Of a stretch of 64,000 nucleotides of DNA, positions 1 to 1,668 are shown one piece after another. The position numbers were made by a program, and so were the translations under genes. Source of the stretch: Bacteroidota bacterium (lineage in GTDB: Bacteria; Bacteroidota; Bacteroidia; Bacteroidales; GCA-2711565). Within the stretch, counting starts at the first letter, position 1. Each line of letters begins with the position of its first letter. A model generated the notes under the pieces. The model did no database searches. It had not been told where the DNA came from and saw only the letters and a program-made list of their open reading frames with translations. The stretch spans positions 192,554 through 256,553 of the forward strand of contig JAHIVC010000099.1 of the NCBI GenBank assembly GCA_018816945.1, given 5' to 3'.

Positions 1-1668
1 GCCTGAAACTACCGGAATAATAGGTAAATTGAAATGTTTAGCGAAAGAATAATCCCTGCTGTCGTGCGCGGGAACGGCCATAATAGCCCCAGATCCGTAA
101 CCGGCAAGCACATAATCAGCAACCCAAATTTGGATTTCTTTTCCGTTCAAAGGATTAATTCCATAAGCTCCTGTAAATTCTCCACTAATATTTTTAACCT
201 CCGATTGCCGTTCGCGCTCCGAGCGGTTTTTCGCCCATGTGACATATTTATCGATGGCTTCTTTTCTATCGGGAGTTGTAATTTTGTCAACTAATTCATG
301 TTCAGGTGCAAGTACCATATAGGTTGCGCCAAATATGGTATCCGGCCGGGTTGTAAAAACATCGATCACCTCTCCTAAATCCTCCCCAATGGGGAGGACT
401 TTATTGTCCAAATAACTTTTAATTTCATTAATTACCTTTTCGGGATTGGCAACTACTTCTTCATTTTTAAAGCGGATTACTGAATAACCATAGGTATTTA
501 ATATTTCTGTTCTCTCTGCATCTTGTTCTAACTGCCTTTCATGAATTTTCCCATCAATTTCAATGACAACTTTTTTCCTCAAGCAAACAAAATCAGCAAT
601 AAAACGATTGATAACATGTTGCCTTCGTATTTTATGCCCAAGTTGTTTTGCCCGAACACGTTCCCAAATTATTGATTCTGCTTCGGTCGGTTTTTTTCTG
701 GCTTCTTTAACTTTTTCTTCTAAAAGTGACCACATCTGCCCATCCGAGGTCATATAACCCGGTCTTGCTCCCTCTCCTCTGGAGAGGGCTGGGGAGAGGC
801 GAAAGTAAATAGTTGCACCCTGAGACCGACCAATCCAGTTACGCTGCATTTCTTTAATCGAATCCGACCAGTCAATTTTATCAAGTCCGTCAAGCAATCG
901 TTGGGCATAGGCTGTAATCCGCAACGACCATTGTTTCATCAGCTTTCTTTCAACCGGATGACCTCCTCTTTCAGACAGTCCTTCTTTTACTTCATCATTA
1001 GCCAGTACAGTTCCCAATTCAGGGCACCAGTTAACCATGGTATTGGACAAATAAGCCAACCGATAGTGCATTAACAATTCCCGTTGTGCTTTTTCATCCA
1101 TTGCATTCCAATCTTCAGCACTAAAAATTACCTCCTGATCAGTGGCCGCATTTATATTTTTATTTCCTTCTTTCTTAAATTTAGAAATCAATTGATCAAC
1201 TGATTCTGACTTGTCATTATCTTTATTGTACCATGAATTGAAAAGCTGAATAAAGGTCCATTGTGTCCATTTATAATAACCGGGATCACAAGTGCGAACT
1301 TCCCGGTCCCAATCAAATGAAAAACCAATTTTATCGAGTTGCTCACGATAACGATCAATATTTTTAACCGTTGTTATTTCAGGATGTGTTCCGGTTTGAA
1401 TGGCATATTGTTCGGCAGGCAAACCATAGGCATCATACCCCATCGGATGTAATACATTATGGCCCTTTTGGCGCATATACCTGGCATAAATATCAGAAGC
1501 AATATAACCCAAGGGATGACCAACGTGAAGACCTGCACCGGAAGGATACGGAAACATATCCAGTACATAAAATTTGGGTCTTGAATGATCTATTTCAGCC
1601 TTAAACGTTTTGTTTTCGCTCCAATATTTTTGCCATTTAGGCTCTATTTCATTAAAATTATAATCCAT
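1..1668 (-). CDS. leuS: Leucyl-tRNA synthetase, 5' part, with in-frame DUF559 insert
   Basis: Class I synthetase that charges tRNA-Leu in the cytoplasm. The first 556 codons are present; the gene runs off the left edge, so the KMSKS loop and anticodon-binding domain are not seen. The N-terminus ([16 protein letters not shown]), the HIGH-type motif ([14 protein letters not shown], about residues 46-60) and the start of the CP1 editing domain ([10 protein letters not shown] near residue 280, then [20 protein letters not shown] from about 435) are clear. Between these two CP1 strands, about 145 residues (roughly 287-430) match a DUF559 nuclease-like domain instead of the usual short loop. I read every codon through the insert and found no stop and no frameshift. 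The start at 1668 has an AGGAG-like site just upstream. It is divergent from ftsX. Identity is sure; whether the inserted protein is spliced, tolerated or inactivating is unknown. Confidence 0.95.
366..803 (-). mobile_element. DUF559 nuclease-like nomadic element inside leuS
   Basis: In-frame insert in the CP1 editing domain of LeuRS. The translated core carries the DUF559 hallmarks: [20 protein letters not shown], then IADF with Asp359, then EIDG with Glu370 and Asp372, then His376, and a C-terminal [13 protein letters not shown] stretch. DUF559 belongs to the PD-(D/E)xK/Vsr-like nuclease superfamily, and the putative acidic residues are kept. Each end has a small GC-rich palindrome: CCCTCTCC-TCT-GGAGAGGG at 770-788 and TCCTCCCC-AAT-GGGGAGGA at 380-398. 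These hairpins lie in the coding frame and look like element ends. The exact boundaries are estimated from where LeuRS similarity stops and resumes. Confidence 0.7.

Follow-up and report, generated by a model that had tools for sequence, protein, structure and literature searches.

Introduction

On the usual view, homing elements spare their hosts by relying on introns, inteins or intergenic gaps. One group of homing nucleases, the EDxHD endonucleases, includes I-Bth0305I, which was reportedly described in Taylor 2011. The DUF559 family has already been placed in the EDxHD homing family, according to the available text of PMC9403480. Rickettsia palindromic elements (RPEs) resemble the present case in another way: in the portion of PMC10969869 at hand, they are palindromic DNA of about 150 bp with a peptide ORF, inserted into the reading frames of many unrelated genes and translated there. 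In REP/RAYT (TnpA-REP) systems, paired inverted hairpins with a tail (BIME) flank a Y1 HUH transposase. A search of titles and abstracts, with preprints and most subscription journals outside its scope, found no paper on in-frame DUF559 elements among those listed.

Here we describe a DUF559 nuclease domain carried in frame by the leucyl-tRNA synthetase (LeuRS) gene, leuS, at the start of a 64,000-nucleotide stretch of DNA (the window). We read the insert, with a rough probability of 0.65, as a mobile homing-type selfish nuclease element that remains an unspliced domain of the host protein and is tolerated by keeping the frame.

Results

An in-frame nuclease domain in leuS

The leuS gene lies on the minus strand of the window (1668-1), where a single frame remains open across the insert for 556 codons to the window edge; in the genome the frame extends over 1,165 open codons. 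The features of the locus are as follows.

1..1668, minus strand: leuS, leucyl-tRNA synthetase, residues 1-556, remainder beyond the window (open frame, Pfam)
364..801, minus strand: in-frame inserted element, residues 290-435, replacing the 9-codon loop of the empty gene (comparison with L010)
789..799, minus strand: outer tail of the element's 5' end (coding sense)
770..788, minus strand: 5'-end hairpin with 8-bp arms and a 3-nt loop, translated within a 12-residue stretch
409..717, minus strand: DUF559 (PF04480) nuclease domain of predicted Vsr/I-Bth0305I fold, active-site motif kept (Pfam, predicted structure)
380..398, minus strand: 3'-end hairpin with 9-bp arms and a 1-nt loop, translated within an 11-residue stretch
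369..379, minus strand: outer tail of the element's 3' end
4..375, minus strand: LeuRS CP1 editing domain (PF13603), continued beyond the insert (Pfam)

Pfam placed three domains on one leuS protein: tRNA-synt_1, DUF559 at residues 318-420 (E = 1.2e-32) and, at 432-555, the LeuRS editing domain. The DUF559 match scored 112.5 bits against a curated cut-off of 20.6 and covered profile positions 5-108 of 109. The insert comprises 146 codons, compared with 9 in an empty leuS of the same genus (L010), and lies in the first beta-hairpin of the CP1 editing domain, after the strand ending ...GATIYF and before the strand starting DVFTTRPDT. The open frame, the three domains on one protein and the empty L010 confirmed the original prediction of an in-frame DUF559 insert in the LeuRS editing domain. 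Its borders, given as 366-803 with about 145 extra residues, were shifted to 364-801 (residues 290-435) by the alignment with a related LeuRS that had been proposed to set them, with L010 as the reference. The two flanking palindromes were also found; the 8-bp arms claimed for both are correct at 770-788, but the arms at 380-398 are 9 bp long, and both hairpins carry tails.

An assembly chimera at the insert was excluded. A second genome of the genus (G001) carries the same insert at the same place, with a dS of 0.355 for the insert and 0.333 for the host, and named isolates carry copies in LeuRS (Cellulophaga baltica, Gillisia mitskevichiae) or RecG (Maribacter luteus, Flavobacterium difficile). 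A pseudogene beside a second intact leuS was likewise rejected: this gene was the sole strong LeuRS match in its own genome among the matches listed, and the HIGH, KMSKS and TTRPDT motifs, which we take to be the LeuRS motif names, are all present in the carrier. The genome holds two further DUF559 matches: L002, an ordinary gene, and L003, a frame that contains helicase-like sequence.

Beyond the window, at residues ~765-880 of the same LeuRS (L001/L004/L005), a second nuclease-like in-frame stretch was observed (..AEHLLWEYI...FDFF...LIIEIKS..). It was also seen in G003 (L012), in G050 (L033) and, more diverged, in G200 (L214), and this region was highly variable in length among the LeuRS read. 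Contig C130 of G001 holds a second LeuRS-like frame of 771 codons, about 53% identical, perhaps through genome contamination.

The fold of the insert was predicted separately from the rest of LeuRS, with a pLDDT of 80.8. The model matched a stand-alone DUF559 structure (3hrl; Z 15.4, rmsd 1.2 over 93 residues), I-Bth0305I (3r3p; Z 12.2, rmsd 2.4 over 94 residues; Foldseek E = 4.2e-4) and Vsr (Z 10.2). Sequence comparison supported both 3hrl and I-Bth0305I, the profile match to the latter having an E value of 3.6e-6. These results agree with the earlier description of DUF559 as PD-(D/E)xK/Vsr-like and indicated that the catalytic domain and fold of the insert are homologous to those of the EDxHD homing endonucleases. 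The model of the whole LeuRS was poor (mean pLDDT 63.8, pTM 0.39), with the insert at about 75-85 and the junctions at 296-306 and 424-432 both below 50, which fits flexible linkers in the predicted structure. The nuclease is about 105 residues long with no added DNA-binding part; this is small for a homing endonuclease and counts against the homing reading.

The insert recurs in LeuRS and in other host proteins

Among the 60 nearest genomes, the insert was bridged in at least six, its own included (G000, G001, G058, G024, G007 and G035). Within the genus it was present in G001, and the LeuRS loop was empty in four genomes (G002-G005). In a sample of the class, at least 18 of 395 genomes, again including its own, had DUF559 in the LeuRS loop (at least 16 bridged, plus G123 and G386 on reading), a lower bound, since further copies may lie hidden among split matches. 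Within one genus, the insert was found in at least 6 of 45 genomes (G471, G296, G270, G452, G386 and G462). A LeuRS tree of 135 rows, built with the insert removed, required 26 changes of insert state (perhaps 25, as L137 was scored empty though it has the insert), 19 of which were forced by starred branches. Three LeuRS copies occupy a second site. The insert also lies at the same LeuRS place on a contig labelled Paceibacterota (L138), which would be a transfer between phyla if there is no binning error. An unrelated in-frame tandem repeat (SQQSAVS, NSELKTQ) was observed in the same LeuRS loop in G051 (L020).

Comparison of nine occupied and empty LeuRS pairs revealed that the element takes the place of all or part of the hairpin loop, and host codons were also replaced in the corresponding RecG comparison. 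No target-site duplication was seen by eye in the nine pairs or in RecG; the neighbours have diverged, and a short old duplication could be lost.

A DUF559 search of 20 carrier genomes identified additional long-frame copies: two in recG, both at a single site, and others in metH, acs and the gene for a 7TMR-DISM/SpoIIE protein. Named genomes were then scanned with 15 in-frame cores as the query, and the best 80 loci of 575 relatives were kept. These contained 84 DUF559 matches, 72 in frames of at least 260 residues and 12 in short ORFs, proportions that are no census, since the scan was biased towards in-frame copies; two of the 72 were chance second stretches (L138 818-845 and L194 1000-1053). 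The 94 host frames from both sets formed 20 groups, with Pfam run on 19 representatives: LeuRS (51), IleRS (7), MetH (6), RecG (4), methylmalonyl-CoA mutase (4), MetRS (3), RecJ, Acs, ValRS, UvrD-type and guanylate kinase (2 each), and nine singles. The DUF559 domain is N-terminal instead of internal in the guanylate kinase, LeuB, LeuC and RNase H hosts. Full copies were found in RecG in at least 4 of 149 genomes of one family (30 loci read). In a phylum sample of 296 genomes, a profile of the in-frame copies gave at least 24 matches in at least 21 genomes at 146 bits or more; 22 of the 24 such matches listed were in frames of at least 400 codons, the profile itself having been built from such copies. 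Carriage by phages or plasmids was rejected, only 2 phage and 27 plasmid records having matched, all below 60% identity.

Seven of the 12 short-ORF copies end -11 to +27 nt from the start codon of the next gene, the N-terminus of which contains the translated right end, and all seven are in Prevotellaceae, Bacteroidaceae or Prevotella records. Copies at the 5' ends of genes, with stop and start overlapping or nearly so, were seen at L154, L155, L177, L185, L192 and L193; the downstream genes resemble what are presumably argC (three times), trxB, argG and a ferredoxin oxidoreductase gene. Another DUF559 group (L247, L337, L338, L340, L342-L344) has a different N-terminus and is in frame with similar translated ends, in hosts that look like what we take to be restriction-modification genes.

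Divergence of inserts and hosts

A DUF559 tree was built on 109 columns; of its 123 inner branches, 64 are open, which counts against the reading given here. In it, 94 of the 95 in-frame rows grouped with 11 short-ORF copies (105 rows together, SH-aLRT 92). The 20 ordinary DUF559 genes fell outside this group, as did a single in-frame row, the decayed L114. The tree as drawn gives no single origin for the LeuRS copies. The LeuRS label changed 19 times on this tree, compared with a shuffled mean of 38.6, which indicated that copies are clustered by site. This clustering is in keeping with the best-surviving alternative to a mobile element, namely that the insertions are old and vertically inherited, with many losses and occasional ordinary recombination, and that the element is no longer mobile. 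The MCM, RecJ and UvrD copies also form one group each. In the insert's own genus, dS fits vertical descent: insert and gene have travelled together since G000 and G001 split, which counts against the mobile reading.

A clearly young insert in an old host was found in only 2 of 1,272 same-site pairs (L137, L162, L189 and L175 dropped). In L148/L152, from two Cyclobacteriaceae MAGs, dS was 0.10 for the insert and 1.35 for LeuRS; in L125/L132 (RecJ) it was 0.36 for the insert and 1.40 for the host. Four pairs (L144/L189 and three of genus g71) were left out of the dS and dN/dS comparisons. Plain recombination could explain both young-insert pairs, and these were the two in which flanks were inspected. 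To the right of the L148/L152 insert, divergence is low for about 23 codons, as after homing in the available part of PMC3943268. The left flank contains an 11-codon run without a difference, yet 4 differences fall within the 8 host codons next to the insert. Because this flank is not clean, we place less confidence in the homing reading and more in vertical inheritance. A shared low-divergence flank was also sought in L125/L132, and none was seen on either side.

Vertical inheritance is nevertheless at odds with the 19 changes of state forced on the LeuRS tree and with these same two pairs, in which the insert is young and the host old. It is equally at odds with pairs in which the hosts are close and the inserts far apart: hosts and inserts are 93% and 65% identical, respectively, in L217/L221, and 79% and 55% in L124/L166. 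Clean in-frame loss would also be expected to be rare. From these sequence comparisons, insert and host divergence disagree in both directions, with a younger insert in some pairs and a foreign insert in close hosts in others, and we consider vertical inheritance of an immobile element unlikely.

Selection, decay and in-frame scars

The dN/dS of the insert was 0.04-0.12 where dS was finite, which places the nuclease under purifying selection. These values were similar to or mostly slightly above those of the host, a point against the element reading. Of 25 LeuRS inserts identified by way of LeuRS, 23 retain the E, D, E, D and H residues; the count was restricted to these because conservation among 72 rows is biased, many of them having come from a scan with patterns that include the motif. 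The two exceptions were G001, with an Asp to Asn change in EIDG (EING), and the decayed copy in G035, in whose translated flanks no end motif was evident by eye. In-frame scars without the nuclease were found in the LeuRS of G140 (L201) and in the RecG of G563 (L279), G586 (L276) and G509 (L264).

Purifying selection and the kept active site would also suit a functional domain fusion, in which the nuclease was recruited to LeuRS for the host, for example to cut tRNA or DNA during stress or in defence against phages. Such recruitment is difficult to reconcile with related domains in some 20 host groups, with a patchy presence among near relatives, with the decayed G035 and altered G001 copies, and with scars that persist without the nuclease. 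A host function of this kind is, in our judgement, very unlikely.

Palindromic ends

On the coding strand, the left end of the element consists of the tail CCTCTCCCCAG followed by a hairpin, and the right end of a hairpin followed by TTTAGGAGAGG. Each end is a GC-rich hairpin with a tail, and by eye one end is the inverted repeat of the other. The exact end pattern CTCCN{2,12}GGAGN{4,9}GGNGAGG matched three times in the 4.14 Mb genome, with two of the matches overlapping, and all matches were at the two ends of the insert (control, 0). Further copies with the same flanking palindromes, for which the original prediction had proposed a search, were thus absent from the genome by exact pattern search. 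A dispersed REP family in the genome was also unsupported, as a looser hairpin pattern gave six sites, one in the insert and five without the tail. Several of these five other CTCCCC..GGGGAG hairpins (L034-L038) have a TTACCCCTCT stretch and a further small hairpin next to them, and the five resemble a separate family of short repeats.

Hairpins on both sides were detected in 68 of 94 in-frame copies (L151, at a contig end, was left out), compared with 1 of 89 windows 600 nt farther out and 0 of 94 shuffled sequences. In 26 of the 94, the hairpin was undetected on one side or both, which counts against the element reading. Both hairpins were also detected in 7 of 11 short-ORF copies of the in-frame group and in 13 of 20 ordinary stand-alone DUF559 genes, against 7 of 46 control ORFs of the same loci; the hairpins of the ordinary genes likewise count against the element reading. 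A stricter test, requiring a hairpin with an outward G-rich tail, identified 46 left and 40 right ends among 95 in-frame copies (both in 24), and 2 left and 3 right ends among the 20 ordinary genes (both in 0). Inspection by eye indicated that left and right end types are mostly alike within a copy and different between genomes, and that the two copies in one gene or locus at L187 and at L195 share an end type. Ordinary DUF559 genes (L086, L094, L095, L103, L104, L106, L108 and others) often have genome-specific flanking hairpins, some with tails that point inward.

The ends resemble paired REPs, and a RAYT (TnpA-REP, HUH) transposase could in principle move the palindromes with DUF559 as cargo. 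Y1 transposase matches were present in 9 of 10 carrier genomes, and the portion of PMC6006769 available to us describes a Bacteroidetes TnpA-REP subclass flanked by atypical hairpins. However, hairpins lay on both sides of only 7 of 23 Y1 loci and differed in sequence by eye, and an outward-tailed element end was found on either side of none of the 23 (L290 has one in the turned sense). Moreover, G193, a single contig that is 100% complete, carries the LeuRS element and has no Y1 match at E 0.001, and the end motif is not dispersed in the insert's own genome. Movement by a RAYT is improbable on this evidence.

Removal of the insert after transcription or translation (intein-like, as an intron or by ribosome bypass) would suit an interrupted essential gene with hairpins around the insert, but it is highly improbable given that the frame is kept through the copies, selection acts on the insert, no Hint domain was found among the Pfam matches of the leuS protein and host representatives, and an insert in a variable loop needs no excision.

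Discussion

A proposed homing-type element within host proteins

The selfish or nomadic in-frame element of the original prediction is supported by the spread over about 20 host groups, the recurrent gain in LeuRS, the two-way mismatch of insert and host divergence, and the in-frame scars. The present analysis adds that the element is widespread, that it is kin to a known homing endonuclease and that it replaces codons of the host loop. No sign emerged that it alters LeuRS editing, which the original prediction had raised as a possibility.

We propose the following cycle for this mobile homing-type element. Its inverted palindromic ends would be translated as linkers, and the nuclease would fold as a module of its own on a LeuRS surface hairpin, within what we infer to be a full-length fusion protein; the LeuRS enzyme is probably spared. 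The nuclease would then cut the empty leuS loop in a related cell or in incoming DNA, and repair of the cut leuS would copy the element into it (homing). Occasionally the element may enter a new gene, where only in-frame, loop-placed copies would survive, and the palindromes presumably have a role in this cycle. The nuclease would later decay or be deleted, leaving an in-frame scar. The insertion, its frame and ends, the recurrent change of state, the transfer apart from the host (in single pairs), selection, predicted fold, decay and scars are read from sequence data, whereas cleavage of an empty site, repair by homing, the fusion protein, the role of the palindromes and the way into a new gene are inferred.

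The odds slightly favour regarding these copies as a new class of mobile element: a splicing-free homing element, consisting of a palindrome-bounded nuclease frame with neither start nor stop, that persists in essential proteins across Bacteroidota (perhaps beyond, given L138) and is a steady source of inserted domains and loop scars. Its host would seemingly be spared by the element being a tolerable extra domain. Such a class would trace the "domain insertions" of essential enzymes to an origin at the DNA level and would explain odd sizes of LeuRS, IleRS, RecG and MetH in Bacteroidota. It would also be a system in which to study how proteins accommodate added domains, and would offer compact nucleases with known natural sites.

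Comparison with known systems

The insert has its catalytic domain in common with I-Bth0305I and other EDxHD homing endonucleases. It also spreads independently of the host gene while bound to one site, partly with a flank that appears co-converted, and this recalls homing. Unlike those endonucleases, the insert has no intron or intein, no extra DNA-binding domain was seen in it, it stays in the host protein, and it is bounded by palindromes. It is apparently neither spliced out nor free-standing: the host frame is continuous, the insert has no start or stop of its own, and the Pfam matches of leuS and the host representatives include no Hint family that would place it among inteins.

Stand-alone DUF559 proteins (3hrl) share the family and fold of the insert, and hairpins on both sides are common to many of their genes. 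They differ in having their own start and stop, in lying outside the in-frame group of the tree and in that none of the 20 genes has an outward-tailed end on each side. REP/RAYT systems share the paired inverted hairpins with a tail; the element differs in having no HUH transposase, and no Y1 HUH transposase flanked by the same palindromes was found at the 23 Y1 loci. The likeness to RPEs that had been suggested in concept holds by form, since the element is likewise a palindrome-bounded insert, in frame and translated, in the genes of many host proteins. It differs from RPEs, as far as the available text of PMC10969869 describes them, in holding a nuclease between two palindromic ends and in belonging to another phylum. 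The element is a DUF559 member that stands outside inteins, intron-borne nucleases and RAYT systems, and we take it to work like a homing element and to look like an RPE with a gene inside.
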